Assembly (NCBI GenBank): GCA_018417955.1
Contig: JACTVC010000004.1
Span: forward strand, 1,674,001-1,738,000
Reading direction: 5' to 3'
DNA: 64,000 nucleotides
Source of the DNA: Laccaria trichodermophora
Taxonomy: Eukaryota; Basidiomycota; Agaricomycetes; Agaricales; Hydnangiaceae
The notes beneath the pieces are model-generated. The model was not told the origin of the DNA. It saw only the letters and a list, made by a program, of their open reading frames with translations, and did no database searches. Shown here in pieces: positions 28,605 through 61,074 of this stretch; the first letter of the stretch is position 1; the number at the start of each line of letters is the position of its first letter. Made by a program: the position numbers and the translations under genes.

Positions 28605-31600
28605 ATGTCTGATCTTAATCGCCCCCGCGAAAATCGTTTGAAAGGAAAGTTCAAGGGATTGCTCGGTCGTTTCGTTGGCGCAGATCGCTCACATGATGAA
28701 CGCCCTAGCGGTTCGAAATTGGAGTCACTGATCCCCATGCCTGCGGATAGCATCCTGACGGAATCTAGGTCAATGTTCACAAGAGTGCCTGAAGTTATGG
28801 GAGAGGGGACATCTCTGGTGTGTTTGCAATGTGCTGCCAACAAGTTTATCAGCTCATATTTGTCCTCGGGAATCCTTGAACATAATGCAGGGAGCTCACA
28901 ACTTTCAGGGAGCTCATAACTTTGTTATGAACGATCCCACATTCTATGACGTGTGTCATTTGTGAATCATGGCATTTATGAGACTGACCAGACTTTTTCT
29001 CAAGATTGTGGTTCATGAACATGCCAGCAGGGGTCAAGATGATACAATCCTTGCTCCCCAAGGGCCAAATTCAAGTGCTCTATTTACAGGTCGTGAGTAT
29101 ATTCTTCAGAGGCTGAAGGATTACTTTGCACCTCAAGATGAAGGGGGGGACAGAAAGTCATTCTTGTTATATGGCATGGGAGGTATTGGAAAGACACAAA
29201 TTTGTTTGAAGTTTGTTGAGGAGATGGCTGGAAGGTAAGTTTTTTCAGACATAATATTTCTGATTTTATGACAAGTGCATGCAGATTCTCCCACATTTTT
29301 TGGATTGATGCTTCTTCTGAGGATACTATTGCTCTTGCTTTGAAGGGTCTCTGTTCTCATCCTGAGGCTAAAGCTGCTGGTATTTCTGTGTCCTCCATGT
29401 CTGCTCTTAGCTGGATTGCATCTCTGCAGTGTAAATGGCTGCTGGTGTTTGACAATGCTGATGGTGCACCTGAAGTTGTAGAGAAATTTGTTCCACTTGG
29501 TTCTGAGGGCAATATTCTGGTTACCAGCAGAAATCCATCTCTTGGGCGTGTCACATCTTATGAAAACTCTCTGGAGGTTGATCAGATGGCTGAAAAAGAA
29601 GCTATAACACTCCTCATGAAAGCCAGCCATCTAACTGAGCTGCCTAAAAAGATTTACATCATAGCTCAGCAAATTGTCAATGAGCTCTGCTGCTTGCCTT
29701 TGGCTGTTGATCAAGCAGGAGCTTCCATTGAAGCTGGTCTCTGTAGGATTGAAAATTATCTTGAGCATCTCTCTCAACATAGGAACAAGCTTATGAATCA
29801 CCCTTCATTTAGGGGGGCATCTCAGTACAATCGTACAGTTTATGAAACATGGGATTTGTCTTTTAATGAAATTGAATCAAGATCAAACAGGGAATCTGAT
29901 GAGCATAGTAGAGCAGCTGCTCAGGCTGCTATTCTTATTCTTGAGACAGCTGCATTTCTACATCATGAGAATATTGTTGAGGCTGCTTTTAGAAAGGCTG
30001 CTATGGAATTCTCTGCAGGAGATCACAGTGAACTGGAACAAAACATCAAAACTTGCATCACCCAATTGCTTCAATTGGAAGCAAATCAGTGTTGGAATGA
30101 ATTCTTCTTTAATGAAGGAATTAGAATTCTTATGTCGTTTTCTTTGATCAAAAGGGGCTCAACCCCTTCAGGAACCTATGCCATTCATCCACTGATGCAT
30201 CAATGGAGTAGAGATAGGATGTCAATGTCTCAAAAAAGGTGCATGACACAGGTGTCAAGATTTATCCTTGTTAGCTGTATTACAAGAGAAATGACAGCTG
30301 AGAACATTGCATTCAACAGACTTCTTTTACCACACATCAAGGCCAATTACCAGTTAGAGAAGGAAAATGGCTTCAAAAGAGTGTTTGATGATGATGAATA
30401 TTCCCAATTCAGTTATGTATTCTACCAAAATGGAATGTGGAAAGATGCAGAGGATCTTGAGTATCAAATGGTAGAAATGAGGATGAAGAAGCAGGGGATG
30501 AAACATCCATCAACATTGACCAGTATGGCAAATCTTGCAGTCACATATTCACACCAAGGAAAACATGAAGAGGCTGGGAAGCTGCAGCTGAAAGTCCTGG
30601 ATCTGGATACAAGGGTGTTGGGGCCAGAACATCCTGATACATTGACCAGCATGGCCAATCTTGCAGAAACATATTCACACCAAGGAAAACATGAAGAGGC
30701 TGGGGAGCTGCAGCTGAAAGCCTTGGATCTGCGTACAAGAATGTTGGGGCCAGAACATCCTGATACATTGACCAGCATGAATAATCTTGCAGAAACATTT
30801 TCACACCAAGGAAATCATGAGGAGGCTGGGAAGCTCAAGCTGAAAGTCCTGGATCTGCGTACAAGGGTGTTGGGGCCAGAACATCCAGATACATTGACCA
30901 GCATGGCAAATCTTGCAAGTATCCATTCAGAGCAAGGGAAATATGAGGAGGCTGGGGAGCTGATGCTGAAAGTCCTGGATCTGCGTACAAGGGTGTTGGG
31001 GCCAGAACATCCACAAACCTTGACCAGCATGGCAAATCTTGCAGTCACATATTCACACCAAGGAAAACATGAAGAGGCTGGGAAGCTGCAGCTGAAAGTC
31101 CTGGATCTGGATACAAGGGTGTTGGGGCCAGAACATCCTGATACATTGACCAGCATGGCCAATCTTGCAGAAACATATTCACACCAAGGAAAACATGAAG
31201 AGGCTGGGGAGCTGCAGCTGAAAGCCTTGGATCTGCGTACAAGAATGTTGGGGCCAGAACATCCTGATACATTGACCAGCATGAATAATCTTGCAGAAAC
31301 ATTTTCACACCAAGGAAATCATGAGGAGGCTGGGAAGCTCAAGCTGAAAGTCCTGGATCTGCGTACAAGGGTGTTGGGGCCAGAACATCCAGATACATTG
31401 ACCAGCATGGCAAATCTTGCAAGTATCCATTCAGAGCAAGGGAAATATGAGGAGGCTGGGGAGCTGATGCTGAAAGTCCTGGATCTGCGTACAAGGGTGT
31501 TGGGGCCAGAACATCCACAAACCTTGACCAGCATGGCAAATCTTGCAGTCACATATTCACACCAAGGAAAACATGAAGAGGCTGGGAAGCTGCAGCTGAA

Positions 31601-32372
31601 AGTCCTGGATCTGGATACAAGGGTGTTGGGGCCAGAACATCCTGATACATTGACCAGCATGGCCAATCTTGCAGAAACATATTCACACCAAGGAAAACAT
31701 GAAGAGGCTGGGGAGCTGCAGCTGAAAGCCTTGGATCTGTATACAAGAATGTTGGGGCCAGAACATCCTGATACATTGACCAGCATGAATAATCTTGCAG
31801 AAATATTTTCACACCAAGGAAATCATGAGGAGGCTGGGAAGCTCAAGCTGAAAGTCCTGGATCTGTGTACAAGGGTGTTGGGGCCAGAACATCCAGATAC
31901 ATTGACCAGCATGGCAAATCTTGCAAGTATCCATTCAGAGCAAGGGAAATATGAGGAGGCTGGGGAGCTGATGCTGAAAGTCCTGAATCTGCGTACAAGG
32001 GTGTTGGGGCCAGAACATCCACAAACCTTGACCAGCATGGCAAATCTTGCAGTCACATATTCACACCAAGGAAAACATGAGGAGGCTGGGAAGCTCAAGC
32101 TGAAAGTCCTAAATCTGCAAACAAGGGTGTTGGGGCCAGAACATCCAGATACCTTGACCAGCATGGCAAATCTTGCAGTCACATATTTTGGCCAGGGAAG
32201 ATATGAGGAAGCTGCAGAGCTTCAAGTAAAGGTTATGGACCTGCATAAAAGGATTTTGGGGCCTGAACATCCAGATACTTTGACCAGCATGACAAATCTT
32301 GCAGGAATATATTCAAAGCAAGGGAAATATGAGGAGGCCGAGGCACTGGGGCTGAAGTCTGCATCTGAGTAA
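28605..32372 (+). CDS. NLR1: NB-ARC-TPR protein
   Basis: Exon 1 starts at ATG 28605 with a basic N-terminus and ends at a GTGTGT donor (28818). A later exon (acceptor at 28890 or 28908) contains GAHNF.MNDP, a phrase typical of agaricomycete NLR N-termini, but meets a TGA at 28963-28965. The NB-ARC frame opens at ATG 28969: P-loop GMGGIGKT near 29173-29196, then a phase-2 intron (29235-29284, 50 nt), then Walker B LLVFDNAD and the sensor region TSRNPSL. A winged-helix-like region follows, then 15 TPRs of 42 codons (30525-32369) with kinesin-light-chain-type consensus. By family knowledge these are STAND ATPases that oligomerise on ligand recognition and trigger defence or cell death. The start is uncertain: either 28605 with an unseen splice around the TGA, or 28969. 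NLR2 at 41062 is its duplicate. Confidence 0.82.
30525..32036 (+). repeat. Three tandem 504-bp units of four TPRs each
   Basis: Units start at ATG 30525, 31029 and 31533, and a partial fourth starts at 32037. Each is exactly 504 bp, or four 42-codon TPRs. The units differ by only a handful of bases (for example CGTACAAG against TATACAAG near 31739). The four TPRs inside one unit differ much more from each other. This is a recent higher-order amplification. Confidence 0.92.
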
Positions 32373-41061: not shown

Positions 41062-44000
41062 ATGTCTGATCTTAATCGCCCCCGCGAAAATCGTTTGAAG
41101 GGAAAGTTCAAGGGATTGCTCGATCGTTTCATGGGCGCAGATCGCTCACATGATCAATGCCCTAGTGGTTCGAGGTTCGTGTCGCTGAACCCCACACCCA
41201 CAGATAGCATCCTGACAAAATATAGCTCGACGTTTACAAGGGCGCCTGAAGTTACGGGAGAGGGGACATCTGTGGTACGTTTGCAATTGTGCTGACAAGT
41301 TTATCAGCTCATTTCATTTGTCCTCGGGAATCCTTGAACGTACTGCAGGGAGCTCACAGCTTTCAGGGAGCTCATAACTTTGTTATGAATGATCCCATGT
41401 TCTATGATGTGTGTCATTTGTGAATCATGGCATTTAATAGACTGACCAGACTTTTTCTCAAGATTGTGGTTCATGAACATGCTGGCAGGGGTCAAGATGA
41501 TACACTCCTTGTTCCCCAACGACCCAATTCAAGTGCCTTGTTTACAGGTCGTGAGGATGTTCTCAAGAGGCTAATGGATCACTTTGCACCTCAAGGTCAA
41601 GTAGATGGTTCCAGAAAGTTATTTTTATTGTATGGTATGGGGGGAATTGGGAAGACACAGATTTGTTTGAAGTTTGTTGAGGAGATGGCTGGAAGGTAAG
41701 TTGCTCCACACACAATATTTTTGATTTTATGACAAATACACATAGATTCTCCCATGTTTTCTGGATTGATGCATCCTCTGAAGATACTATTGATCTTGGT
41801 TTAAAGGGTCTTTGTGCTCATTCTGAGGCTAGAGCTGCAAATATCTCTGTGTCCTCCATGTCTGCTCTTATCTGGATTGCATCTCTGCAGTGTAAATGGC
41901 TGCTGGTATTTGACAATGCTGATGGTGCACCTGAAGTTGTGGAGAAATTTATTCCACCTGGTTCTGAGGGCAATATTCTGGTTACTAGCAGAAATCCATC
42001 TCTTGGGCATGTCACATCTTATGAAAATTCTCTGGAAGTTGATCAGATGTCTGAAAAGGAAGCTATAATACTCCTAGTGAAAGCCAGCCATCTAACTGAG
42101 CTGCCAGAAAATGTTTACATCATGGCTCAGCAGATTGTAAATGAACTCTGCTGTTTGCCTCTGGCTGTTGACCAAGCAGGAGCTTCCATTCAAGCTGGTC
42201 TCTGTAGGATTAACAATTATCTTGAGCATCTCTCTCAACATAGGAACAAGCTTATGAACCACCCTTCATTTAGGGGAGCATCTCAGTACAACCGTACAGT
42301 CTATGAAACATGGGATTTGTCATTCAATGAAATTGAATCAAGGGCAAACAGGGAATCTGATGGGCATGGTAGAGCAGCTGCTCAGGCTGCTATCCTTATT
42401 CTTGAAACTGCTGCATTTTTACATTATGAGAATATCATTGAGGTTGCTTTTAAAAGGACTGCTGTGGAATTCTCCAAAGGACATCATGTTAAACTGGAAC
42501 AAAATGTCAAAACCTGCATCACCCAATTGCTTCAGCTGGAAGATGATCAGTCTTGGGATGCATTCTTCTTTCATGAAGGAATTAGAGTTCTTCTGTCCTT
42601 TTCTTTGATCAAAGGGTGCTCAACCTCTTCTGGAATCTATGCCATTCATCCTTTGGTGCATCAATGGAGTAGAGATAGGATGTCAATGTCTCAAAAAAGG
42701 TGCATGATGCAGGTGTCAAGATTTATCCTTGTCAACTGCATTACAGAAGAGATGACAGTTGAGAACATTGCATTCAACAGGGTTCTTGTAGCACATATTA
42801 AAGCCAATTATCAGTCAGAGAGGGAAAATGGCTTCAAAAGAGTGTTTGATGATGATGAATATTCCAAATTAAGTTATGTATTCTGTGAAAATGGAATGTG
42901 GAAAGATGCAGAGGATCTTCAGTATCAAATAGTAGAAATGAGGATGAAGGAGCAAGGGATGAACCATCCATCAACACTGACCAGCATGTCAAATCTTGCA
43001 AGTACCTATTCAGACCAAGGAAAACATGAGGAGGCTGGGGAGCTGAAGCTGAAAGTTATGGATCTGCGTACAAGGCTGTTGGGGCCAGAACATCCTGATA
43101 CATTGACCAGCATGGCAAATCTTGCAGTCACATATTCACACCAAGGAAAATATGAGGAGGCTGAGAAGCTGCAGCTGAAAGTCTTGTATCTGCGTAAAAA
43201 TGTGCTGGGGCCAGAACATCCATCAACATTGACCAGCATGGCAAATCTTGCAGTCACATATTTACACCAAGGAAAATATGAGGAGGCTGGGGAGCTGAAG
43301 CTGAAAGTCCTGGATCTGCATACAAGGGTGTTGGGGCCAGAACATCCATCAACATTGACCAGCATGGCAAACCTTGCAGTCACATATTCAGATCAAGGAA
43401 GATATGAGGAGGCTGGGAAGCTGCAGCTGCAAGTCTTGTATCTGCGTACAAGGGTGTTGGGGCCAGAACATCCATCAACATTGACCAGCATGGCAAATCT
43501 TGCAGTCACATATTCACACCAAGGAAAATATGAGGAAGCTGGGGAGCTGAAGCTGAAAGTCCTGGATCTGCATACAAGGGTGTTGGGGCCAGAACATCCA
43601 GATACATTGACCAGCATGGCAAATCTTGCAGTCACATATTCAGATCAAGGAAAATATGAGGAGGCTGAGAAGCTGCAGCTGAAAGTCTTGTATCTGCGTA
43701 CAAGGCTGTTGGGGCCAGAACATCCAGGTACCTTGAATAGCATGGCAAATCTTGCAGTCACATATTCAGGTCAAGGAAAATATGAGGAGGCTGGGAAGCT
43801 GCAGCTGAATGTTGTGGATCTCTGTGCAAGGGTGTTGGGGCCAGAACATCCAGATACATTGAGCAGCATGGCAAATCTTGCAGTCACATATTCACACCAA
43901 GGAAAACACATGGAGGCTGAGGAGCTGGAACTGAAAGTCCTGGACTTGCGTAAAAAGGTGCTGGGGCCAGAACATCCAAATACTTTGACCAGCATGGAAA

Positions 44001-44272
44001 ATCTTGCAACAACATATTCACACCAAAGAAAACACATGGAGGCTGAGGAGCTGGAGCTGAAAGTCTTGGATCTGTATACAAGGGTGTTGGGGCCAGAACA
44101 TCCAGATACCTTGACCAGCATGAATAATCTTGCAGTCACATATTCAAAACAAGGAAAATATGAGGAAGCTGCAGAGCTGGAAGTAAAGGTTCTGGACCTG
44201 CATAAAAGGATTCTGGGACCTGAACATCTAGATAATTTGACCAGCATGAATAATCTTGCAGTCACATTATGA
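41062..44272 (+). CDS. NLR2: NB-ARC-TPR protein, C-terminally truncated
   Basis: Duplicate of NLR1. Exon 1 starts at 41062 and ends at a GTACGT donor near 41276. The next exon carries GAHNFVMNDP and the same in-frame TGA (41421-41423) as NLR1. The NB-ARC frame starts at ATG 41427 with P-loop GMGGIGKT, has a phase-2 intron at 41696-41745 (50 nt), then Walker B LLVFDNAD and the TSRNPSL sensor region. Ten full 42-codon TPRs and the first residues of an eleventh follow, ended by TGA at 44270-44272 inside the repeat. The TPRs are single units without the 504-bp higher-order copy of NLR1, so the two sensors differ mainly in the repeat domain. Role as for NLR1, by family knowledge. Confidence 0.82.
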
Positions 44273-46035: not shown

Positions 46036-46582
46036 TCACTGAGCAGGCTGGGGTATATAATGCTGTTCCTGGTTTGATGTGGATTGTGATTTACTGAGCA
46101 AATACCAGATGACAGGTGCCTTTCTTAGTTGAGTCTGATCAGGCTGGTCAAAATTTTTCAATAGTCTGTTGAATACTGGCAACCTTTTCATGCCCATCAG
46201 ATTTGGTTGGGTTGAGATGGTATAGAAACACACTGCATCCCAAAGATCTTGTTCCACATATGTATGGTTAAAGATGTTGATTGTATTTTTGATCAATGCC
46301 TTGGGGTTTTTGGGATGTTTCTCAGCAGCAGACAAGATTACCAGTTTGGCAATGTGTTGAGGCATATAGAAAGTCTGATAAAGAATGCTTGTATGCTTTT
46401 GAGGGCTTCTCTGACTTATAATAGTAATAGTTGAGATGGCACCCAGACGAAGGTACAGAGACTCATCTTCATTTTCCTCTTTCTGTCCTTCATCCTTGTC
46501 TATATCACTCAGTTTAGCCACCACATAACCAGTCTCGTTGAACACTTGATCTTTCCCATGGTCTTCCTTCACATATATCAGT
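46036..46582 (-). pseudogene. Unrecognised gene cut by the KDZ element
   Basis: A 178-codon frame ends in PQPAQ and a stop at 46036. Toward its N-terminus it contains an acidic stretch (DIDKDEGQKEENEDE), then a structured part (YMPQHIAKLVILSAAEK.., DLWDAVCFYTIST). Reading upstream, the frame meets a TGA right where the CpG-rich sequence of the neighbouring element begins (about 46583). The upstream part of this gene is thus missing at the join. I could not find it right of 59.9 kb. Family unknown. Confidence 0.4.
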
Positions 46583-46583
46583 C

Positions 46584-46607
46584 ACTACGTCACGTACCAA
46601 ACGTAGT
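46584..46607. repeat. Perfect 7-bp hairpin at the KDZ left border
   Basis: ACTACGT (46584-46590) and ACGTAGT (46601-46607) are perfect inverted repeats around a 10-base loop CACGTACCAA. They sit where the flanking gene frame ends. It may be part of the element tip. The right-hand partner was not found. Confidence 0.4.
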
Positions 46608-46963
46608 AGCCGGACGTGACAATGAGTCGTAATGAACGGGCCAGCCGGTCCCGGCCGGACTTTCCAAAACATCCCTTTACCAACGGACCAGCCAGATGCT
46701 TCTAAATGGCTTGCGGGACGGCGTCTCTTCCCGCGGCAGCTACCTACGGCAGCCTTCTGGGTGTCCCGTCGGCACCACACCAATAGTACATAATGACCTA
46801 CTTTCACGTTGTAGCTAATTGTATACTTCCACCTCAAATCTACTTGCTTAACCCCACAGCTGCTGGTCAGCAAAGCATGCCCGCTAAGGGTGGAACCAGC
46901 AGGTTTACATGAGGCCGCTCACTCGATCAAAATCTTTGTGGGTGACCTTCACATATTACCACC

Positions 46964-48351
46964 ATGGAACATGGGGTTCTTCAAATGACTCAGGAAATTG
47001 CACAATACCTAACAACCAAATTTCAGGCAATACTCCATCAAGATCACGACATGCATGTATCTTTTCCTACTCACTGGAACCTCAACTTCCTCCATGAGGT
47101 TGACCAGATAGCTTTGCTCCTCGTTGAGGCCGTCCAAAATCAGGGTAGGATCTAAAGCCATCCCACTCCTCGTCAAAGTTTCTCATCGACCAATCTAGTG
47201 CAAACCTCTTGGGATGCTAGCCGTTATTGCGATAGCATTGGAACTGCCATGAATGGCACGCAGCCAGCCGCAGAAGAAAAAATCACTCGAAGATTCCCTC
47301 CAATCTATGAGCCTCCAGTGCATGCGACAGAGCCTTTGGTGGTCACCGACAAGCACGGGAATGGGCTCGTTTGGTACCTGCCACATTTGATCACAGAACA
47401 GCGTCAAGTAAGTCAGTGCCGATGGCGCACATGCTGTCGGGGTTAGGTCGAATTATGCCGTCGGCGCATGCAGCCGTTTGTCGATGCCGCAGGGTTTAGG
47501 TGCCGGAGCGGGGGAGTTCAGCATGACTGACCAGGCCTGTTACAGATCGCCATGTGGCAATCCCTCTGGACACTAGAAAGTGTCCTCAAGATGGATAGTA
47601 AAACAACAAATTGGAGACTCAAGGCAAACAATTTTCGGAATCCCTCCTCTTGTCAACTTAAACCCGGGACTGTCAGTTTGTCTCCAGCATGGTTCCAGCA
47701 AGGCCATGAGGTTTGCTTTTAACCTTCATTGATTTACATACTAACACAGTATACAAACAGTCCTCTGAGTATAAGATGGAAGTAGGAGCTCAGATGAAGG
47801 CTGACACCGCCGGAGCACAATGGCAATTCAAGATGCAGGAATCAGCAGCTTTCATTGGTGCCATCCTGAGTATCATTCATCCTCAGTTATTTCGTCAAGG
47901 AATTGAAGCCTTCGGCGTTCTGGCGGCACATGGTGTGGACTTTGTTGAGGATGAAGCACAGCTGAGGCAAGCACTGAATGTTTGGACATCCCCATTCAGT
48001 GCTCTCTCAGTCATAACCAACCGAGTCACTCCTTTACATCGTGACACCAAGGGACGAAATGAATGGTTTGATTTTCTGGTCGCCCTGGGGGAGAATGATT
48101 CCCTTGGAACTATGACTTTTCCAGGCTTGGGTGTAACTGTGGAATACAATCCCGGAACCATGATTGCAATCACAGGTAAGGTTGTCAGACATGGTGCGGA
48201 GTTCCAAGGTGGGGAGAGAGCATGCATCTCATACTACATGAGGAATACAGTGCATGACCGGCTGGGCATACCAGCGGGGACATGGATGAACTTAAAGATA
48301 TACAAGGAACAGGAACAGAAGGAAGCAGATGATGTTTTGAAATATAACTAG
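46964..48351 (+). CDS. TET/JBP-family 2-oxoglutarate/Fe(II) dioxygenase
   Basis: Exons 46964-47144, 47199-47407, 47546-47710 and 47761-48351 join in frame through introns of 54, 138 and 50 nt. The last exon carries the fold: the iron-binding His-x-Asp at HRD (48037-48045), the distal iron-binding His in KVVRHGAEF (48190-48192) and a 2-oxoglutarate-binding Arg in GERACISYYMR. The frame just before reads NRVTPLHRDTKGRNEW, the family signature. The N-terminal exons include VLWYL-like and PGTVSLSPAWFQQGH segments seen in mushroom members. Family role: oxidation of 5-methylcytosine (to hydroxymethyl and further forms) in nuclear DNA. It lies at the left end of the KDZ element, convergent with the next gene (98-base gap). 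Its second intron contains a CCGTCGG word. The start at 46964 is the first good ATG; an extra 5-prime exon is possible. Confidence 0.88.
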
Positions 48352-48449
48352 AAGGCAAGATGTCATTTACAAGATATGCATGTACAGATTCACTAGAATA
48401 TAAGTCCTGCCTCAGTACAATCACTTGTGCAAGGGGGTAGAAAACTTGC

Positions 48450-49686
48450 CTAAGCAGCGTCGCTGTCAAAGGCTGAACCTTGACCATCAGAGCCTTCACT
48501 CATTTCATAGTCAGGATCTTCTGCAGAATCTGAGCCTGAAGCATCCCAATCAAGATCTGCAGATGACACCGGGGATGGGGGCGCTAAATCAACAACCATA
48601 CCATCTAGAGAGGGTCCCCGCGGTGCATGCGGCGGTTGCAGCGGAGTCCCCCGCGGCACTCCAAGTGGAGAAAGTCTCCGCGGCACGGCGTACCCAGGGG
48701 ACCGCGGTGGCCCCTCGGACGGAGTAGATCCCCGCGGTGCGATTGATGGAAGCAACGGCTCCAACGATGGACTGGCGGTTTCTTCTACCACAGATAGTGG
48801 AACCTGGGGTTTTGATGGTGGAGGAAAAGCTTCACCGTGAGGTAGCAAGTAAGGCAAGAATTTGTTTTTTGGCGGGTTATTGCTCAGCCATGGGCGGGGT
48901 GGGATAGGCAAGTCTGCCGGAATGTCAAGGCTCAGATCACCCTGGTGCACCTTTTCCAACAAGGCTTCCAAAGTTCCTATGCGCCAACGAGCTGCCTTCC
49001 TTGCATCCCTCCAGTTTGCCATAACTACCTCAATTCTAATGAGAGCACTCTGTAGACACTCGAAGGCGCGTGCCGCGGATGCACTGATGTCTCGAGGAAT
49101 CGGTCCCAAGGGACGTGATTGTGAATCAATACTGAGAGGCTAAAAAAGAGTGCATTAGATAGAAGTTGAATGAGAGTATGGAAACCAAACCTGATCAACT
49201 AATTGTAGCCAAGCATCAAAGGCCTTCATCTCTTCCTTGGAGTAAGGTTTGGGAAGGCAGGGGTTCTCTTCGGTGTTCCACCAATCTGTGTGGTAGGATG
49301 AAACGATGCGGCTGGGGTCATCGGGATATGTGGTATTGGGGAGGAGGTCCAGGGGTGGCAGTATAGCGAACTCTGTGTCTTGGACATGAGTTGCGTGCAT
49401 GAAAGAACTTACCCAAGCAGGGATTTTGACAACACTACCATCAGCAACATGATAGCCGATGGCCAATGCCAGTCTTTCCTGCATATAAAACAACAGATGA
49501 ACATATTCACTGTCAAAGACAGGTGAAACTTACACCCTCTGCACGGAGACCCTTTGTCCACCACATGTGTTTCTCAGGGGATTCTGTCCAAGAGTCTTCC
49601 TTGTCTTCAAAAGCTTGCCAAGCAGCTTTGCAACGCGACGAGAAATAATAAATGAGCCATTGTCCTTGCAAGAGAGATGGCGGCAT
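48450..49686 (-). CDS. KDZ-element partner protein with acidic tail
   Basis: Three exons join in frame: 49686-49534, 49478-49191 and 49139-48450, with introns of 55 and 51 nt. The N-terminal part has Trp-rich, folded-looking sequence (MPPSLLQGQWLIYYFSSR.., KHMWWTKGLR, then ERLALAIGYHVADGSVVKIP). The middle has a helix (AFECLQSALIRIEVVMANWR) and the C-terminal third is Pro/Ser/Asp-rich and acidic (DPDYEMSEGSDG). The CCGCGG word encodes PRG or similar several times in the C-terminal third. It sits between the TET gene and the transposase gene, on the transposase strand. I recognise no catalytic motif. By position it may help transposition or bind chromatin; that is inference. Confidence 0.6.
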
Positions 49687-49956
49687 GGTAGTTCAAAGGT
49701 CGCAACTGATAACCATTGTTTCTAATCTGATCGAGAGCAATGTGGTCATGTGATCCACACATGGCGGTGATGGTTACAACGCCGCGGGGAAACAATTGCA
49801 AGAATGCCGCCAGACAGGCGCCGCGGTGCAGCACGGCGATGCCAGTGCCGACGGCGTTATAAAATTGGTCCCGACGGTGTGATAACGGCGGAGCGTCATC
49901 CCGCCCGATGTACACTGCTGGCCACAGTAATAGGACCAATAATCATTGAAATACAT

Positions 49957-52900
49957 TCATACTAGAGGGATTACTTGATAATGAAAGTTTGCAATGGAAA
50001 ATCGTTTGTTGGCGTCTTCAGCAAGCCTCATCCAGATATCCATCTGCCCCTCAGCGTAGCAGACATGGCCATCCTTCCCTTCACCCCTAGCTAATTCCCT
50101 CCATCCTGCCCATTTCCTCGTCTGGAATAAAAAATATCTCGTAACCCATTCCATCTCGTGTGATGTTATATTAAATTCTTCTCTCCAACGATGATATCGT
50201 GCTCGCGCACGAAGCCAGTTCACCCTGTGAACTGAAAAAGTTTCATATTAGAATTCAAGCTGGACCATGAATGTTAGGACCCACATTCAACCATTCTGGA
50301 ATTATCTTCCATGTCGCCAGAAAGGTCAGAGCCCCAGAACCAAGCAGGCCGCATGTTACGTTGCCCGGGAGCATTGGGATCTGCAATGGCAGTGTTAGCT
50401 TGCATGTCCTTCACCTCCAATGGTTTGTAAAGAGTCCCAATGGTTCTGTCAGGGTCCCCTAATTTCTCCAATGCTCTCACCGCATGGGCATAAAGCAATC
50501 TGTGATGATGAAGCACTCTCCCAACAGATTGTATCCCCGCCCAGGCTCTTGTTTTCTTCACCTTGCTTTTCTTGATCTTTCGGAGTTTCTTCGAATACTC
50601 AAACGAGAGATTCGCGATCGACACCTGAACACCCTGCAGAGCATCATTGGCCTGACCTTGTCGGAGTTGATACTCTTTCCATAGGAGTGATTCCAACTGT
50701 TTGGAATGCAGCATCGCAGCTCCGAAAGTAGATGGCAATGGAATTTTGACATGTTCAACGGCTTCAGTGGCTGACCGAGTGGCAGCAAAGGCACGACTGG
50801 CCTTAGCCAGAGCAATCTGTTCCAAGGTCAGTTGGCCCGTCGGGCACCCCGCGGCAAAGGTAGCCGTCGGGCCTGTGCCAGTATTATCAGTAGGGAGTGG
50901 ATCATCGATTTGGAGCATGTCATCCATGTCAAACTCTTCAACAAGAAGGGTGACATTCTCAGAGAGAGACTGTTGAATATTTTGACCGATGAAATTCCAT
51001 GCCGTCCTGTTGAACGTATCCACACGGGACCTCAGCCTCTCCCGTTTCTTGGCAATCTCAAGTTTTTGAGCGGTGGTCGGGTTTGAGCCAAGCCTTCGGA
51101 TGAAGCAACGAAGATCAATCCTTTGAGGACGTGTTAGTGCTGCGTCATGTTCCACATGAATGATGAATAGAGAACTAACTGTGATTCTTCAATTTTGAGC
51201 CCTGTAGCTATCCACGATGTTTGTCCAGTTTCCCCTGTTGCAGCAGCTTCCTGCTCCATAAGGTCCAATTGGACATCTGCAGTTGACTTGGGAGCTGATG
51301 AACAATTATTTAGCCAGGATCAATGAGAATATCTCAGGGATAAGTTGCAGAGCACCCGCGGCAGCAGTCCCAATGGGAATACATTGCACCGTCGGCGACA
51401 CCTTTATCCCCGTTGGGCCTGCCGCCGGCGGCGGGCAGCAAGATAGCCGCGGGACCCTCCAGAAAACGGAATGGAAAAATGGAGGACTTGCCTTCATAAT
51501 TTGCTGGTTTGGCTGGTTCCATGATATCCATAGCTTTCAGATTACCTCTTTCCCGTTGTTTTTCGGCATGCCTAATGTCCTCAGTCCACTTTACAACATC
51601 TGAAGGCAAAGCGGAGTGATTCAATTGCTCAAAGTACTCCTGGCTGTCCACCAACCCCACGACAGACTTCTTGTACTTTGAAGTAACTGAAGAAACAATG
51701 TTGACCATTTTATTCCAGTTGCTGTAATTCATATGGTCGTCAAGAACTTCTGACCTGTGGGCCAAAGTGGAGGTCCGAGTACTCCGGGAAATGTCATTAA
51801 GTTGGGACCACAGAGATTCCAGGATCTCACCGTCAACCATCCCAGCACCTGGAATGAAGGAAGTGGCAAACCTGAAGAGGCATTCATCCCGATGACCATG
51901 GACGTGGAAGAGACCGATTGCAGCAAACAGCTGCAACTTTTCCGGAAAAGAGAGGAAGGGGTTCTCAGAAATTCTCTTCCAGAGGTGGACATGGTATTGA
52001 CACATCACATCATATATCACCATTACCTTTCCACCTGCATCCAAGTTCATTGTTTTTAGTGCCTCACACAATGCATAGTCAATGTTCATTTGACGTTCGC
52101 CCTTTTGAAAATCAACCACACTTCCCGGAATGAAGGCACCGGATCTAGCACATGCAAAAGCAGCAATGCCAGTCACATCACAACCTGCATGATTTTGACT
52201 TGCATTGTTGACCGCCTGATGGTTGGTACAAGTAGACTTCGGCTGGCAAAAAAAATGAGCGATCTAAATGCAAGTGTATGGGCAGTAATTTCTTCCCGCG
52301 GCTGGCAAAGCCCACCGAATGAGCCCGCGGCAGAGAAATGCTCCGCTGCAGCTGGCAGCCCGCGGTAGATTGAGGAAGCCCGACGGCAGCACTGGTTCCA
52401 CCTGATTTCTGCCCGCGGCAGGTATGCGACCTGCTCCGCCGCGACTTGCCGGCGGAAGTGTAGCCCGCGGTAGACCAAGGCACTAGCCGACGGCAACGGT
52501 AGTTCCATTTGCCCACCTCGGGTGGGGCTATTGCAAATGGGCCGCGGGAATGGGAGGAACGTACTTACTTGGGGTATTGCAATTGGGTGGGCAAGGTAGC
52601 TTTTGTATCGTGTCTGGTTGGTCATCATCCCCTCACCACTGGTCAATGGGACATCATCCAGTGGATTTTTCTGCTTCAGGTGATCAGCCGAGAAATTTCC
52701 GTCTACACAGATGAACCTAGTAAAAACATCTCTGATAAAAACTTTACTTCAGTAATCTCAAAGCCCCTTTGAGTGAACAACATACTGATCTGGTTCCTCT
52801 TTCCAGTTGTCTGGTAAGTTGGTTCCAGGTTGGGGACAGGAAGCACAGCCATATGCCATTTCTCCAGCTTTAGGTATGCGGTCCTCATGTCCAAATCCAA

Positions 52901-54472
52901 ATGACTTTCGAAGCTCCATGTTCCTCCATTGGCGGCTGACCCGCATCAATTCTCGGTATCTGTCCTTGGAACAATGTGGAAAAGAGGGTATGAACAGGGT
53001 TCAGCTTGAGTCTCTGCGTGCAACTCACCGGCACTGATTTGGGAAATGTAGGGCATGTTAACCGTCGAAGTTTCAGAAAATATTGGTAACAGGAACTTTT
53101 GCAACACAAGTTAGTCATACGGAAATCATCCAAAACTCGGAATGTGAAGACGGTCCTGATGGAGGTGAAGCTGCTGGGAAAGAGCCTTTCCTGTAACAAC
53201 TGCTCATCCCTTGGTCGTGCAGAAGGGCACATGCAATAGTGAATGGGAAGATGATGAAGGCCATTGGTGTCAACAACTGTTATGAAAGGATTACCAAGCG
53301 TATCTTCGCCAACAGGCTGAGGGGGGGTATCGAAGCCTTTCATCCTTTCATAATACTCATTGGTGGCATGGTCGGTAACATTCTCAGCAGCATCATCATG
53401 AAGGTCTTGATCGGAACTTTCTGACTCCACATTGTCGACGTCTTCAGAGTCATAACCTTCATCAACATCTCCTTCTCCCTTGTCATCACCAAATAGCTCC
53501 AGGGCAGCCTTGCCCAATCGGATATTGAGGTCTGGAATGTCGGTACCTCCACCACCGCCGTAGTGAGTGTCCACATTCGTACCTCCGACGGTGACGCTTT
53601 CCAAGCCATTTTCCTCTGGGGAAGTGACTGGTCCCGCGGCCATCAAGTTCCTTGCCGCGGGGCTATCATCTGACCCGACGGTGAGAGGATCGAGGATTGT
53701 TTCCACGCCGCGGGCGGGGGCATCAGTGGAATTCGTCTGCCCGGCGGCGGTGGCTCCACCTCCCGCGGGGCCAACAATCCTAGAAATCCACCGTTGGTCT
53801 TGCCTGGAATTCTCTTCCATTTCAGATTCTGCCAATCGTGGGCAAGGATTACCACCATGGCACAGATTGAAAATCAATCCAGTTTCCCAGAGAGCACTGG
53901 TCCTGAAAAATTTCCCATTCCAACACTGTATCCTGTGGGTATGAAGTCTCTTGTGCCCAACCCGGCAGCATCCGCGGCAGAGGAGAGGTTGTGAGGAGCA
54001 ATCAAGACAACGAAAATACCCCCGTTGTTGGTTACATTCAGCACAAATCATCAACGATGGTGGTGCTTCTGTTTCCAGCATGACATGGATGTGACGATCC
54101 CGAAGGGCCTTCCAGTCTCTAAGATAGTCATTCTGTGTCTGCAGTAATTGGAGCATGGTTGCAGGAGAATCAAAGGAAGATCTAGCCCACCTTTCCCGAT
54201 GTTCTTTGATGCAGGGGGATGACTGTGGCATCTTGGTCATACCCTTCACCAAGATCGTTGATCTCTTGGGCAGGAGTTGGGAGCGTGGCAGCTGCAGGAG
54301 TTGTCGTAGGGAGGTCTGCCTCCATGCGATGGTATTTGACCTTTTGAACTTGCCCCCGGGCTGTTTTACGAATGGATGTCTCCACCTGAAGGGGTTCGTC
54401 CAGCATATCAATGGGAATCTTGAAGCGACGCATGTTGTGATTGAAGCAAGGGAGCGGCCAATTTCCTGACAT
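49957..54472 (-). CDS. KDZ transposase with CxC2 cysteine cluster
   Basis: A multi-exon gene read right to left. The N-terminus (54472 or 54433) reads MRRFKIPIDMLDEPLQ. After a frame change near 54.25 kb comes the CxC2 zinc cluster (CAECNQQRGYFRCLDC.. CRGCCRVGHKRLHTHRIQCW, 54060-53850). A long acidic spacer follows, then the second CxC2 half (VVDTNGLHHLPIHYCMC..) ending at a GTGAGT intron near 52.98 kb. The RNase H-fold core follows: CVDGNF, a 326-nt intron (52568-52243), VVDFQKGERQMN, VMVIYDVMCQY, GLFHVHGHRDEC, VDGEILESLW. The C-terminal helices (WAGIQSVGRVLHHHRLLYAH, WFWGSDLSGDME) end at 49957. The Asp and Glu residues in VDGNF, IYDVM and EILESLW are the likely catalytic set. One intron near 51.5 kb uses a GC donor. 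Role: cut and paste of KDZ elements. Confidence 0.85.
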
Positions 54473-55383
54473 TCAGCGGTCCCGCGGCGATGTGGCTGTC
54501 CAGCGGCACCTGACACGGGCAACCTCATGTTGTCAATGTGCCCCTGGTATTCAGAATCCTTCTCCAATACACTCCGGAGGCTTTCTGTTCTGTTATACAA
54601 TACCTTTAATCATTGTTATTACCTCGCCGGATGTAACGGCAATGTCGTAGGCTTTGGGGGGAGCTATCGGGATGGTACTCCCCACCTTTCCACAGTCCTA
54701 TCCGTCGCCAGTTGTCTGGTTAGTATAACAGTGTGTAAATTACTGTAGACCTGCCAGTCAGTAATAGAAAAAATTTTCAGTATGCCCGGCACACACTTAT
54801 AAGGGAGGGAGGGCTGAAATAATAGTTGTGGTAGGACGGTGATCCACAAACATTTCAAGGCCTGCTAAATCCCTCCCATACTACTTCATACACATCATCT
54901 TAGCTCATAATGAGCATCACTGGATACTCCTTTTCAGTGTGAATGAAATGGGGCTTGTCCGGGCACATGTTGTTATAGAGGAAAAAAAAAGAATCATTAT
55001 TTGTAGTTGAAACCAAGATAGAATGAAGGTTTCATAAAGGATATTGTCATTAGATGCTGTTTTTTTAGTTGCGATTGGAAAACATACCTTTTTCATTTCA
55101 TTCTTGCAAGAGAATCATCAGAGTGAGGCATAGATTCGCATGGTCTATGTAGCGTGCGTCAGGAAGTAGCATTGGCTGAGTGCGTCGTTGGGCGTCGGCA
55201 TGCATGGTCTGTGCACAGTCACCGACTGGTCCCTGAATCCTTCGCATCACCTTGATTTGGCAACGGCGGTAGGCACCGCGGCAGTGTGCCTTACAGGTGT
55301 CCGGTAAATTTATTGGATGGGCCTCGTTGTCCCCTGCCTTGTCAAGTCATTGTCTCCAATCTTGCACTCCCAATCGTGCATGA
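54473..55383. other. Divergent promoter region of transposase and AT-hook gene
   Basis: This is the only long spacer inside the KDZ element and would drive the minus-strand transposase gene and the plus-strand gene at 55384. It holds one CCGCGG (about 55278) and repeated TGC..GGTC and GCGTCG phrases near 55140-55210. No gene seen. I cannot place a TATA box with confidence. Confidence 0.4.
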
Positions 55384-58008
55384 ATGGTGTCCCCCCCTGG
55401 GCGTCCACCCAATGTACCACAGACACAACCCCGCCGTGGTCAGGCAGCCTTTTCACAAGAAGAAGAGACCATTTTGAGAGAGTTCCTTGACGAGTTTAGA
55501 AGCAAGAAGAAAGAGCAGAGGAAAGAGTTGCTCATGTACAAGATTTATAGGCTCATAAAGGCCGCTGGTCCAGAGTTGACTCCGGAAGAGTGGCGAGACA
55601 GGAAAAAGGCAAGTACCATCCCTCGGTCCCTCAATCTGGTAATCAGGTTATATTGTATTGTAGAAAGTTAAGGAATGGTACTACAACCATGGACGACGTC
55701 CTCATGTGAACCGGTACCGATACATCAAGCCTATTTCCTGGAAGTATGTGGTGGCTCATCTTAAACAAGAAGAAGTGTACTTGAAGGTTAGAGAGCTGGC
55801 AGGCGGTTCGCCACCAGGATCGAAAGCTTTCCTGTCCAAGTATCAGACTGGTTTGAAGTACATTGTTGAGGGGTTGCCTCCAATGGAGAAGAGAGTATAT
55901 GAGGCAATGGCAAAAGAGTGGAGTGAAGAGGCCCCTCCGGCGGATGTCCAGAGAAAGTGAGTGACCGACGGAGCTCTTCGTCCCGCGGGAGGTCCTCATG
56001 TCAAAATGCAGGCTATGGAAACGGCATGGGGCATCAATGTTGAAAGAGATGGATAGGGTTAAGAGCCATCATCTCGGACTCATGAGTTGGGGAATGGAAA
56101 CCTATTTCGATGAGAAGGGACATGCTCGGTACATTTGGAATGACCACAGTGACGAGTTTGGTGTCCCCGACGGCGCCCAAAAATTTGAGGTGATGTTCAA
56201 GGAACAGGTGCTCGAGGTATCAAAGGCGTGGATCACTTACTGTAAACAAATCAAAGGTATGATACGATGTCTACCTATCATACAAGCAAATTTAACTTGT
56301 CACTGTAGACTTGATGGCCAATGTCCCTGCTGAGAACAGAGCGGTCATCCAGGACCGCGGCAAAAAGAAAATACGTTTGCAGCTGGAAGGAGATTTGCCT
56401 ATTCTCCCTCCTCCACCAGTGGGTGGTCACGAACATGCTGAAACACTACAGGCTATGATTAGGGAATTTATCACCATCCACTACCACCTTGCCTGCGGCA
56501 AAAAGACTCCGACCCCTTGGACTTCTCTTGCCACTCATCAGTTGATCTTGTGGGACACACAGATGTGGCCAGCTGGTGTGATGGTCCGGGATCCCAGTAA
56601 AATTGTTCTCAACGACTGCCGAAAAATTGTACAGTTATGGAGAGAAAGACAGTCTGAAGGTGGGGCCAAAGATACATTCAAGTTCAAATTTTATCCAGTG
56701 GGGGATGGAATACAACCTGCCATTTATAATACCCAGTTGGAGACTTTGCCAACTTCTGCGGCGATTGACACCCCGACGGTCCCTCGAGCTCTTCCCAGTC
56801 CCACACCGTCGGAGGGGGCATCGACACCCGCGGCACATGAATGCCCGACGGCCTCTCAATCAGTTTCCCATCCCATGCCGTCGGAGGAATCCACCCCCGC
56901 GGCGAGGAGACCTCCGACGGTGGACATGCCAAGTTCCCACACTTCACTGCCAGATACATTTTTTCAAGGAAGAGTTACCCCCATGGGGCCTCCTGTCCCA
57001 TCCATTCCAACCCCAGCCATCACCCCAGAGCCACAGACAGCTCCATCGGCTAGGGCCTCCACGCCCGCGGCAGAAGAATCTCCAACAATGCAAACTATAC
57101 CGACACAGGTTCTGCCATCCATTCCCACCCCAGGCATTACCCCTGAGCATCTGTCAGCTCCGACAAACACCCTAGTTAGTGGTCCCCAAGTGTTGACCAC
57201 CCAGGCAATAGGGAGAAACTGTGGGGACGACAAAGAGATGGAATCTGACCCCACCCCTAATAAACGAACTTTCACCCATGAACCTGAGAGCGATCCCTCT
57301 ACAGATGAGGATGGTGGAAGACGTGGGATACAGGCTCGCTTGCAAAAAGCCTTGGAAGCCCAATCACCTGAGAGAGGGCCGGAGGAAGATCATGAGGATC
57401 TGCCGCCAAGACTTGGAAGAAAGAAAACAAAAAGTCTCCCTGGCAAGAAGAAAAGGAAAACTAGGAAAGCGTCGAGTTTACCGAATCAAGACAACCACTC
57501 AACCAACAACGATGACAACCCAGCAGAGGAGCACCAATTGCCCTGCCGGAAGAAAAAGCCCATGCGACCAATCAGCCCACACTCGCCGTCGGATAGCACT
57601 CCCATCGGCGGTGTAGCGCCGCGGGGAAGAAAAGCCAGAAAGACACATGCGACAGAGGAAGACTTGTGTCCCTCACCCCCTGGAAGTGATGAAGATGCAC
57701 CAGAAGAACCAAGATATAGAAAACGAGGGGGCAATCGCCCGGCGGTCAAAAGAACGGCTAATGTCAATCCAACACCTACAATTCCTCCTGCTGTTGGACG
57801 AAAACAACGTCCGCGGCCAATCAAAAAGGGTCCCGCGGCATCGATTGACAATGATCAGAATGGAGGAAATGACCAACAACAACGTGATGATGAAGATGCA
57901 ATGTTTACTGTGAACCGACGATCGGGTAGGCCGCCAAAGCCAAAATATAACCTGGCACCCCCAGCGCAATTAAGGCTGGAAAAAGAACGTGAAAGAAGAC
58001 TTGGATAA
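55384..58008 (+). CDS. KDZ-element nuclear protein: DNA-binding-like N-terminus, AT-hook C-terminus
   Basis: Four exons join in frame: 55384-55608, 55664-55956, 56012-56256 and 56309-58008. The introns are 55 nt (GC-AG), 55 nt and 52 nt. The N-terminus (FSQEEETILREFLDEFRSKK.., VKEWYYNHGRRPH) resembles a SANT or homeodomain-type helical DNA-binding module. A second folded region follows (MLKEMDRVKSHHLGLMSWGM.., YIWNDHSDEFG; then WTSLATHQLILWDTQMWP). The last 350 residues are Pro/Ser/Thr-rich, then strongly basic (GKKKRKTRK), and end in an AT-hook-like RRSGRPPKPK. Intron 2 contains both CCGACGG and CCCGCGGG, and the exon-4 Pro-rich part is full of these words. Similar long proteins of unknown function occur in mushroom genomes. 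I infer a chromatin- or end-binding cofactor of the element. Confidence 0.68.
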
Positions 58009-58272
58009 TTTCATAGACAGATATATGGATTCTGAACATGATGCTCAATTCAATGCATCGAACAATGTAGATGTTTTTCTTCAACAGAGAACATGATGCT
58101 TATTTCAATGAAACAAAACAATTCACATGGAAAGGGCATTATTTTTTGAAAGGTAACAAAATATATGTATGTTACATGAAAGAGCAGGTAGATACATGAG
58201 CACAAGATGGGGGGAGGTGACGGTGAGAGAAAAGGCCAGAAGACGAGACAGTCCATTCACCCTTGCACCAAC

Positions 58273-59821
58273 TCAAGCAGTCTGTTGGTCTTCGACAGGG
58301 GCAGGGTCTGCAGTCCTGCCGCGGGGTACCCGACGTTTTGGAGCAGCACGTTTCTTGGTGGGAGCCTTCTTTTTCTTCTCCACAGGACCTGCTTCTTCAT
58401 CTTTGTTGTGCTTTCTCTTGGTCCCCACAGCAGCTTCATCCTCTTCTGAAAGTGGAGACATGGGCTCCTCCTCGCCGTCGGGCGTTGCTACCGAGGCACC
58501 CATGGGGGCGATAAGACCGCGGGTGGATGAGCGATCGCCGCGGGGGAGGATGGGTTTCTCGCCGTCGGGGAGACCGTTGGGAGATATTTGTGGGCCGTCG
58601 GTGGGGTCCTCAGTGTCGCCGACGGGGCGGATCCCAGTCTGGTTGCTGGCGCCGCGGGGCTGACCGTCGGGGGACACACCTGGTTGGCCGTCGGTGTCGC
58701 CGACGGGGGAGATCCCAGTCTTGTTGCTATCGCCGCGGGGGGAGCTGCCAGCGTCGCCGTCGGGGACTTCACCACTCTCGCCGCTGCTGATGAGGGGTAG
58801 GATGGAAGATGACTCTTGAGGGGCAGATGCTGCTGACGTCCCATTATCAGTCCCCTGTCTATGGTCGGGCTGATCAACCTCCATCCTAATACCCTGGGCA
58901 GTGACCTCCACCCGTTCAAGTTCTTCTACCCCTGGGATGTTGCTGCTTTGACCAGCCTGTGAATTTTGGATGGGGGTTGGGGAACGTGAACCCTTCGCTA
59001 TGGTCTCCAGGTGTTTGGCCGCGGGCAGGTGCTGCTGAATGAGCTTGGAAATTCGATTCCAGTCATCCTGCATTTTCTGAAGAATAGCAAGGGGTGGATC
59101 CCCCGCCGCGGCGAGTGACGAGTGGCCGTCGGCGTCCAGACTGCCAGAGTTTGGCAAGGGCTCTTCGCCGATTGCGTCCTGTAGGCCCTGTGGAACCCCC
59201 TGCAAAGCCTTCAGCATGTCTTCCATCATCTCATGCATAGAATTTCCCAGCACCGCAAGTGCCTCCATTACCGAGCAGGTCTTCAGCTCGACATATGCTG
59301 TGGTCGTTTTCTGATGTTGTCGAATCTTCCGAACTTCACGCTTCATCCGATCTTCAGCGTCCTCAATGGCTTTCCTGAGCTCTGCCTGGCCGTCGACTAC
59401 CTTCAAAGCCAGTTCTTGACATGTCTTCTCTAGGTCGGCCATCTGAGTCTTGACCTTTGACTGGTCGTCATCTATTATCATATTCAGTCAAGGTATTACC
59501 AACGGTGAAAATCAACTTACCGTCGGGCACCCTTGCACCGCCCGCGGCGCGAGCTGTACCACCTGCGCCCGCGGCACGACTGGTACCGCCCGCGCCCGCG
59601 GCACGACTTGACCTCTTGGGCTTGGTGTGAAACTGAAGGGCTGGTCGGGACTTCTCGACGAAGGCGTGAGTGCGAGATGGTGGCGGAGAATATTCGGGGT
59701 ACGCGGGAGAGTGTTTGTAACGTGGTGCCGCGAGGCGATACCGCGTTGAGAATATCCTGTGACCCAGGAACTGGGGCGCGGTTACCCGGCGCAGGACTCT
59801 TGTATCCCGGAGGGGAGGCAT
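58273..59821 (-). CDS. KDZ-element coiled-coil protein with PRG/PDG/PVG repeats
   Basis: Two exons: exon 1 from ATG 59821 to about 59522 (Arg/Pro-rich, ending RVPD), then exon 2 from about 59470 to the stop at 58273. Exon 2 opens with a heptad-like coiled coil (DLEKTCQELALKVVDGQAEL.., EDAEDRMKREVRKIRQHQ), then a helical segment (SMHEMMEDMLKALQG). A long disordered part follows in which the CCGCGG/CCGWCGG words always fall in the frame giving P-R-G, P-D-G or P-V-G. It ends in a basic, Lys-rich nuclear-localisation-like tail (EKKKKAPTKKRAAPKRR). No enzyme motif. It is convergent with the AT-hook gene. It may be a structural partner; function unknown. Confidence 0.62.
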
Positions 59822-59839
59822 AAGGCTGCCTAGCCGTAC

Positions 59840-61074
59840 AGAAGAGGGGTGACTCCGTCCACATGTAATATATGATGTGGTGGCAAAGTGAGTATTATTT
59901 GTTACAAACGCAATGCTATACAGAGTGAGGCAAATAGGAGTAAACACGATGGTTCTAGGTCACGCAAGAGTGTATACTACCACGCCGTTACAAAGCCCCC
60001 CCGTGAGATTGAAGCATCGTCTTGACCTACAGGCGGTTCATCCATGATTTTTACGTCCTCCTTCGCGTCGTCAGTAGTCTTTGTCTCTAGTCTCCTTCAC
60101 GGCATTGAATGGTTGCTTAATGGGACCAAAACAGTCACTCAAGGACTCTTCATATTACATAGTCACTCCTTCGTTGACATCCATGAGCCAAGGGTCATTC
60201 ATGGTCAGGGGGTTACTAGACCGCGAAGCTATAGTTAGCATCGAGTTGTTCAGCCTTGCCACTGCTAGAGGGTCTGCCATCGCAATGAGAGAGGGGATCG
60301 ATGGTTGGCAGGGGGAGGATGAAGTTTCTTGTGGAAGTTCGGCCTTTCCACGTAAAGTACTCGATGCCGAGGAAGTAGCAACTAAGTTTATTGACGCGCC
60401 TACGTTTGGAGGGCGTAACGTGATTGATAGTGATGGAATCTTGGCTGATGCAGACAGAGTGATCGCTACTGACTCTGTTACGAGGACGCTGAGAGTAAAA
60501 CAGTTTGGCAGTAAAGGATAGGTCGCCACTCTGGAGATTCCCCATAACCCGACTGGATCCTGTGTATTTCTTGATGAGAGCCACGTATAAACTATGTTCG
60601 CGCCATAAGGCGGCGAGGCAATAGTAAATACTATAGCGATCCTCTAGTCATGGGAGTATAAGGGTTCGTCGGTAGAGGAGGGACTAGTTTCGTTCCACCA
60701 GTGGATGAGGGAGACCTGAAAGGATGGAGAGGTAGAGTTCGATCGTGTGCATGGGAAGATAGCTCGGGTGATGACCAATGGTACAACGGACGGTGATGAG
60801 GGGGAGGAGATTGGGGGCAACAATATGATGGTCGGTTTCCACAATGAGGATGAAGGGTGTGAGGATATCGTCGCCTCGAGTATACTGATACAGCCAGTGA
60901 TTGATAACAAATCCGGGTAGTAGGGCACCTAATACACTGATAATGTTCTGGCAAAAAGGAGGTTCGGCGATAGTCTTGAGATCGCCAATGTTCTCGACAA
61001 GTCAACTTGGGTGCTGAAGACTCGGATCCAGCCAGAAGAGTCGGTCGCGCATTCCTGAAGCTTAGAGTTTGTTA
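59840..61074. other. Right flank of the KDZ element, unrecognised
   Basis: No CCGCGG/CCGWCGG word occurs here. A 147-codon plus ORF (60081-60521) overlaps minus ORFs of similar length; none is recognisable. 60.63-61.00 kb reads on the minus strand as hydrophobic stretches (for example NIISVLGALLPGFVINHWLY) in a frame broken by a stop, possibly the tail of the neighbouring element. I see no clear boundary of the KDZ element in this part. Confidence 0.35.

Follow-up and report, generated by a model that had tools for sequence, protein, structure and literature searches.

A palindromic CCG/CGG word saturates a putative TET-carrying Kyakuja-type transposon of Laccaria trichodermophora and may act as its family-specific recognition site

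We analyzed a 64,000-nucleotide stretch of the Laccaria trichodermophora genome (hereafter the window; positions 1674001-1738000 of contig JACTVC010000004.1, numbered C34 in an assembly of 59.03 Mb and 77 contigs, the single genome studied) and found that a transposon carrying a KDZ transposase and a TET/JBP dioxygenase gene is saturated with one short DNA word. The word set comprises CCGCGG, CCGWCGG and CCGSCGG, which share the palindromic geometry CCG-(0 or 1 base)-CGG. We hold it to be an evenly balanced question whether this word is a family-specific recognition site, saturating a TET-carrying Kyakuja-type element and read by a protein that the element encodes; the reader, the recruitment of TET and the co-evolution of reader and word are parts of this interpretation that we infer.

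A direct count between positions 46731 and 59601 gave 43 CCGCGG, 29 CCGWCGG and 7 CCGSCGG, 79 words altogether, which bears out an earlier sequence-only reading that had claimed at least 40 CCGCGG and at least 25 CCGWCGG over 13 kb; its figure of three isolated hits elsewhere in the window has to be raised to five, since the remaining 51 kb contain 3 CCGCGG and 2 CCGWCGG. Within the word-rich stretch, 43 of the 50 occurrences of CGCG sit inside CCGCGG. Genome-wide, CCGCGG occurs 5449 times versus 8015 for the reversed word, and CCGNCGG 7000 times versus 9627 for its reversed control; the words are therefore rare outside the element. At the genome rate about 1.2 CCGCGG would be expected per 13 kb, and the element surpasses the genome density approximately 36-fold for CCGCGG and 23-fold for CCGNCGG. 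Markov models of order 1, 2 and 3 predict 1.7, 2.7 and 15.9 copies of CCGCGG in the element (order 3 maximum 25 in 300 simulations) and 0.9, 1.0 and 2.3 copies of CCGWCGG (order 3 maximum 7 in 300 simulations). The genome-wide count that the sequence-only reading had proposed thus turns out in its favor, the density being neither that of ordinary genes nor a product of base composition. Close CCGNCGG pairs number 303 across the genome versus 65 for the control.

The word is maintained at the DNA level through synonymous codon choice. Seven exon stretches of the element contain 49 words, versus a mean of 10.1 and a maximum of 18 in 1000 synonymous-codon shuffles that preserve both the protein and the codon usage; the proposal that the DNA word and not the peptide is kept is thereby upheld. 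Consistent with it, the words are read in different frames: besides P-R-G in a coiled-coil gene and P-A-A in an AT-hook gene, both noticed in the sequence-only reading, there are P-D-G in the former and P-T-V and P-S in the latter. Words are also present in introns and spacers. Comparison of the flanks of all 79 words yielded a median best identity of 15/30 versus a null mean of 14.4, and only 12 of the 79 have another word whose flanks are at least 18/30 alike; most words are therefore not copies of one longer repeat, and spread by duplication of longer units is ruled out for most of them.

Profile searches with Pfam detected, within the element, the KDZ transposase domain (PF18758, E 3.4e-36), CxC2 (E 6.3e-23) and Tet_JBP (E 3e-18), the TET/JBP gene lying inside the element between the left end and the transposase. 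These matches point to a TET-carrying Kyakuja-type (KDZ) transposon as the probable host, the assignment to Kyakuja as against Zisupton or Dileera being putative. When positions 46561-47060 were used as a query, 12 other loci gave a match starting at query 8-10, which places the first base of the element at 46570, where the sequence opens with CA. This start fits the TET+ Kyakuja of Agaricomycetes, which the accessible text of Kojima 2025 (PMC12730594) describes as having CA..TG termini, no terminal inverted repeat and a 7-bp target site duplication. The extent 46731..59601 given by the sequence-only reading holds for the words within the window; as the extent of the element it does not, because the element starts at 46570, is cut at 59626, and its word pairs continue at C34:1747053-1748148. 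The features of the element, in window coordinates, are as follows.

46570..46787, forward: left end of the element, beginning with CA; the first two words are at 46731 and 46766; common to ten other loci.
46964..48351, forward: TET/JBP dioxygenase gene (the Tet_JBP match given above); start and introns judged by eye.
48450..54600, reverse: CxC2-KDZ transposase gene region of several exons, with KDZ and CxC2 profile matches; probably a single gene.
48618..48737, no strand: word cluster in an exon, 5 CCGCGG.
49782..49877, no strand: word cluster in a variable non-exon tract, 2 CCGCGG and 2 CCGACGG.
51356..51452, no strand: word cluster in a probable intron, 2 CCGCGG, 1 CCGTCGG and 2 overlapping CCGSCGG.
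52296..52547, no strand: word cluster in a probable intron, 6 CCGCGG, 2 CCGACGG and 1 CCGGCGG.
53585..53768, no strand: word cluster in a variable portion of the CxC2 exon.
55402..58008, forward: AT-hook gene, with RGRK at 57622 and GRPPK at 57925; exon joins judged by eye.
55957..56009, forward: probable 53-bp intron within the AT-hook gene, containing both CCGACGG and CCGCGG; in the sister element described below, CCGCCGG occurs twice at this place.
58273..59625, reverse: coiled-coil gene, cut by the insert that follows.
59626..59992, no strand: 5' long terminal repeat (LTR; TG..CA) of a young LTR retrotransposon, 100% identical to C34:1744544-1744910.

The young retrotransposon, inserted beside the coiled-coil gene, runs from 59626 past the window end to C34:1744910, and the positions of its two LTRs imply a length of about 11.3 kb. 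No word falls between 59626 and 64000. The right end of the element lies outside the window. Past the insert there are further word pairs at C34:1747053-1748148, of which four are spaced at steps of 48 bp, and a partial inverted subterminal match to query 40-99 lies on the reverse strand at C34:1748297-1748355; from these positions the element would span about 16.5 kb without the insert. A search for inverted repeats between 45.0-47.3 and 59.3-61.2 kb returned only short chance-like matches, as expected because the right side is the LTR retrotransposon.

Several short loci elsewhere in the genome share the left end of the element. Ten of the loci matched by the query agree with it up to position 227 at 87-97% identity, and two more are weaker (C12 at 78%, C56:1458994 partial). 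We listed all genome occurrences of a close CCGCGG...CCGTCGG pair (gap 11-41) and obtained 52, versus 29 for the reversed pattern. By our sorting, 39 of the 52 fall in this element (12 ahead of the insert, 6 past it) or in loci with the same left end (21), and 13 are scattered. Eight of the ten loci have such pairs (C1, C3, C6, C20, C21, C34:2598-2599 kb, C56 and C77), with none listed at C23 or C34:2070 kb. At six of them (C1, C3, C6, C21, C56 and C77) the pair lies in a 42-base span equal to that of window positions 46731-46772; the left ends there are 95-97% alike, so these pair words are present by descent. Five loci (C3, C6, C20, C56 and C77) match at both ends over a span of about 3.5-4.0 kb, and steps of 48 bp between words are confined to the short loci and the array past the LTR insert. 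Beside the ten left ends there was no Tet_JBP match within about 4 kb (92 of 92 candidates scored), and neither KDZ nor CxC2 was among the matches listed (best 150 of 355 and best 150 of 210 candidates, respectively). Judging from these features, the short loci resemble non-autonomous copies in which the word is retained and the genes are missing.

A second comparison is offered by a sister element, locus L054 on contig C15, which is 66-75% identical to the window element in separate blocks and spells the word differently. Its 10 kb contain 31 words, namely 22 CCGSCGG, 9 CCGWCGG and no CCGCGG, for which 1.8 copies would be expected. Nine non-alignable tracts separate the blocks; words occur in seven of them in the window and in six of those seven in the sister, and the other two are empty in both. 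Of the words between the first and last matched blocks, 34 of 39 in the window and 19 of 26 in the sister fall within these tracts: the words avoid conserved sequence. Within the tracts, CCGCGG, CCGWCGG and CCGSCGG number 22, 8 and 4 in the window and 0, 7 and 12 in the sister. Five open reading frames (ORFs) of L054 contain 14 words, versus a mean of 3.6 and a maximum of 9 in 1000 synonymous shuffles. At the protein level only, P0007, a relative of the coiled-coil protein (51%), reads P-D-G and P-G-G where the window has P-D-G and P-R-G, a peptide change that would fit the same spelling shift. Contig C8, also related, supplies 10 of the 50 places with close CCGNCGG pairs among the matches listed, over 79.6-94.3 kb.

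Outside the words, the element has lost CpGs to decay. There the observed/expected ratio (o/e) of CpG is 0.54, compared with 0.53 in the left flank, and TpG and CpA are in excess. CpG-decayed forms of CCGCGG number 10 in the element versus 23 expected. The CpGs of L054 are better kept, with an o/e of 0.82.

A dense palindromic site that is kept by codon choice, recurs in short copies and is respelled in a sister is the trace expected of a sequence-specific reader. In the mechanism that we propose, a DNA-binding protein encoded by the element would recognise dense groups of the word and thereby find its own family, whether full-length or stripped-down. The reader would bring or orient the element's TET dioxygenase, or open chromatin, across the whole element, resulting in anti-silencing, and the host genome would be spared since the word is rare there. 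Joint change of reader and word could carry sister families toward different spellings. Demethylation and protein binding at the words are both steps that we infer, and beside a TET gene the likeliest use would, by analogy, be anti-silencing after the manner of VANC. The candidates for the reader are the cysteine cluster of the CxC2 exon, the AT-hook protein and the coiled-coil protein. The sequence-only reading had already considered the word a mark by which the element recognises itself; this stands as a family mark, given the pairs in the element and in the loci sharing its left end and the respelling in the sister, and fails when extended to all KDZ copies.

Several observations weigh against this interpretation. 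Around the best-scoring other KDZ matches, all 30 of 30 pieces of 3.7 kb, some of them near-identical copies, are without any word; the mark does not extend to every KDZ copy. Four further KDZ-TET loci (L055, L058, L059 and L060) have 0, 5, 0 and 4 words in 10 kb each, and close CCGCGG-CCGCGG pairs number 67 genome-wide, below the 100 of the reversed control. By eye, about 7 of 46 window words coincide column-wise with a sister word; in poorly aligned tracts the words themselves may attract the aligner, so we prefer the per-tract counts to the column matches. Decayed forms of CCGWCGG are not depleted in the element (20 versus 12.9 expected), and those of CCGSCGG are in excess in L054 (26 versus 8.7 expected). 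The spacing of the words is equivocal: for the 52 successive distances below 60, the periodogram peaks near 11 bp, at a value that 493 of 20000 nulls reached, and 28 of the 52 lie within 1.5 of a multiple of 11, a number reached by 12 of 20000 nulls; the 17 non-exon distances have no period (R 0.3). The evidence for helical phasing is therefore mixed, and we do not claim it. As to the reader, a six-frame pattern search of the element found neither a Zn2Cys6 nor a CXXC pattern, which speaks against readers of these kinds, and the AlphaFold model of the AT-hook exon was unusable, with low confidence throughout (mean predicted local distance difference test score, pLDDT, 38.8). In addition, Kojima 2025 (PMC12730594) proposes for AG-type TETs an action that lacks target specificity.

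Element proteins that bind repeated, short, element-specific motifs, with a link to methylation, are known from CACTA/En-Spm (TnpA sites) and hAT elements (subterminal repeats). Those motifs are confined to subterminal regions, whereas the words described here also run throughout genes. Fungal Zn2Cys6 proteins recognise everted CGG sites made of CCG-N-CGG half-sites, with the spacing setting specificity, and such sites mark promoters; the half-site geometry is the same, but here the whole element is covered and no Zn2Cys6 pattern occurs in it. Expansions of TET/JBP together with KDZ elements were reportedly described in 2014.

The closest parallel is the VANC/VANDAL system of Arabidopsis. According to the accessible portions of two reports, VANDAL elements have a private short motif that is dense in each family and rare elsewhere, with types specific to subgroups, and encode an anti-silencing factor, VANC, whose effect spreads over the element (PMC5735166, PMC10398659). 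Motif density matters there, motif types differ among subgroups, and the motifs are mainly non-coding and often form tandem repeats (PMC5735166). Density within the family with rarity elsewhere is found here as well, as is a spelling that differs between relatives (one sister, 10 kb). The VANDAL motifs have one orientation, whereas the word here is palindromic, contains CpG, and is not mainly in non-coding tandem repeats, given the exon words and the mostly unrelated flanks. Unlike VANC, the anti-silencing candidate here is a TET dioxygenase; no search for a VANC homologue was made. The element resembles the TET+ Kyakuja described from Laccaria bicolor in its KDZ transposase, TET gene and CA left end, as far as the accessible text goes (PMC12730594). 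In that text, Kojima 2025 cites VANDAL solely as another transposon regulating its own silencing, and the accessible main text contains no mention of 'ccg', 'cpg' or 'subterminal'; that of PMC8889193 has none of 'ccg', 'kyakuja' or 'kdz'. Among the papers listed on Kyakuja/Dileera/Zisupton, on TET/JBP transposons and 5-hydroxymethylcytosine, and on CCGCGG transposon motifs, none describes such a word, judging by titles and abstract openings and with subscription papers outside this scope.

The main rival, which we consider unlikely yet worth serious attention, holds that the transposase complex itself binds the words in order to pair the ends and excise the element, much as with the subterminal repeats of CACTA or hAT elements, with internal copies serving as decoys or assembly aids. 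The word pairs in the conserved left end, the array past the LTR insert and the short loci all agree with it, as does the cysteine cluster of the transposase gene, which is kept in the sister; yet end pairing needs ends only, and the words run on through all 13 kb, even in exons that are remote from the ends. A relic of CpGs protected by TET or by a methylation-free state, reflecting the context preference of an enzyme and no reader at all, would accord with the CpG deficit outside the words and the accompanying excess of TpG and CpA. Protection, however, hardly creates a word density so far above the genome level, and the word's outer C and G are likewise fixed; decayed forms fall under expectation for CCGCGG (not so for CCGWCGG), and the sister lacks CCGCGG despite its better-kept CpGs, all of which makes this explanation quite improbable.

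The words might instead be targets of a host repressor or methylation system that silences the element through dense CCG/CGG pairs. They are CpG-rich, and silencing could in principle be recruited by motifs that are short and dense, but selection on the element should then remove the sites, yet synonymous codons keep them and the sister retains words in the same tracts; we rate this as highly improbable. Finally, the words could have arisen as an artefact, from base composition or from recurring Pro-Ala or Pro-Arg-Gly peptides, and imperfect repeats in the coiled-coil and AT-hook genes do include some of them. Such an origin is scarcely credible in view of the unrelated flanks and the intron and spacer words, and base composition, codon usage and peptide repeats are ruled out as the cause by the codon shuffle and the Markov simulations.

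Returning to the family-specific recognition site, a broader form of this interpretation is possible, and we offer it tentatively: each fungal TET transposon family may write its own private palindromic CCG/CGG word all through its genes and spacers, stripped-down copies may keep it for service in trans, and a coevolving reader may direct the family's own TET to that address. Besides VANC in plants, this would be another sequence-specific anti-silencing system, the second to be known and of independent origin. If true, it would explain how TET enzymes borne by transposons, with dozens of copies in the genome, could act on their own DNA and yet leave methylation elsewhere in place, and it would show that a transposon can write its self-address into coding sequence itself. 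The idea is open to direct test, as it comes with a named word, candidate readers, a differently spelled sister and natural word-bearing short copies without a TET gene.

The genes of the element differ in how they carry the word. The main exon of the AT-hook gene (56311-58008) contains 14 words, 13 of them past residue 150, and the nearest named relative of its protein is from L. bicolor (91%). The coiled-coil gene has 16 words in its main exon (58276-59481) and further words in its 5' part (59520-59601). The KDZ exon at 51493-52176 has no word, and a CCGTCGG at 47458 falls in a non-exon tract of the TET/JBP gene. The TET exon matches CcTet (7vpn, E 1e-27) and conserves H-x-D and a later H and R. 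The CxC2 exon bears the only cysteine cluster found in the element, and L054 keeps it. Pfam searches of two AT-hook-gene exons and three relatives, and NCBIfam searches of five ORFs, gave nothing over the cut-off; a PDB search with one exon, a plasmid search and Rfam gave no match.

The genome holds 76 Tet_JBP matches, and we compared seven KDZ-TET loci over 10 kb each. Besides the strongly word-rich L054, L056 has 16 CCGCGG and no CCGNCGG, and L057 has 13 words and is weak; L058 and L060 are without a clear word, L055 is CpG-poor, and L059 carries TCGGCCGA five times, dispersed. Tandem arrays of 59 bp with the palindromes TCCGGA and CGGCCG occur in L044 (129-756 and 1857-2327), L011 (1-400), L042, L049 and L050, and those of L044 and L011 adjoin a KDZ transposase (C1:5308143). 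Further spellings may exist in other families; because the words at the other KDZ-TET loci are unclear, spellings beyond that of L054 are suggestions only. Close CCGCGG...CCGSCGG pairs number 54 genome-wide versus 33 for the control, with six in this element and none in the short loci. About 20 of the 54 have CCGCGG and CCGSCGG at a fixed 35/36-base span (for example C34:1113660, C19:490386 and C21:319508), some inside other KDZ-TET loci; these places are another repeat family.

Elsewhere in the window, four pairs of inverted arrays (3579-4188/7067-7550, 4626-4814/5963-6160, 12476-12960/15474-15845 and 13479-13664/14253-14346) have repeated words of their own, TTTCAT and ACTACAAA, and resemble non-autonomous transposons with subterminal word arrays; ACTACAAA is also the top 8-mer in L059 and L060. 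Tandem repeats of 126 bp (42 amino acids) at 776-1873, 30502-32338 and 42974-44267 lie in low-CpG 2-kb bins, with a CpG o/e of 0.23 (1-2000), 0.08 (30001-32000) and 0.06 (42001-44000); our guess is that they are probably WD40/TPR repeats of NLR-like genes.

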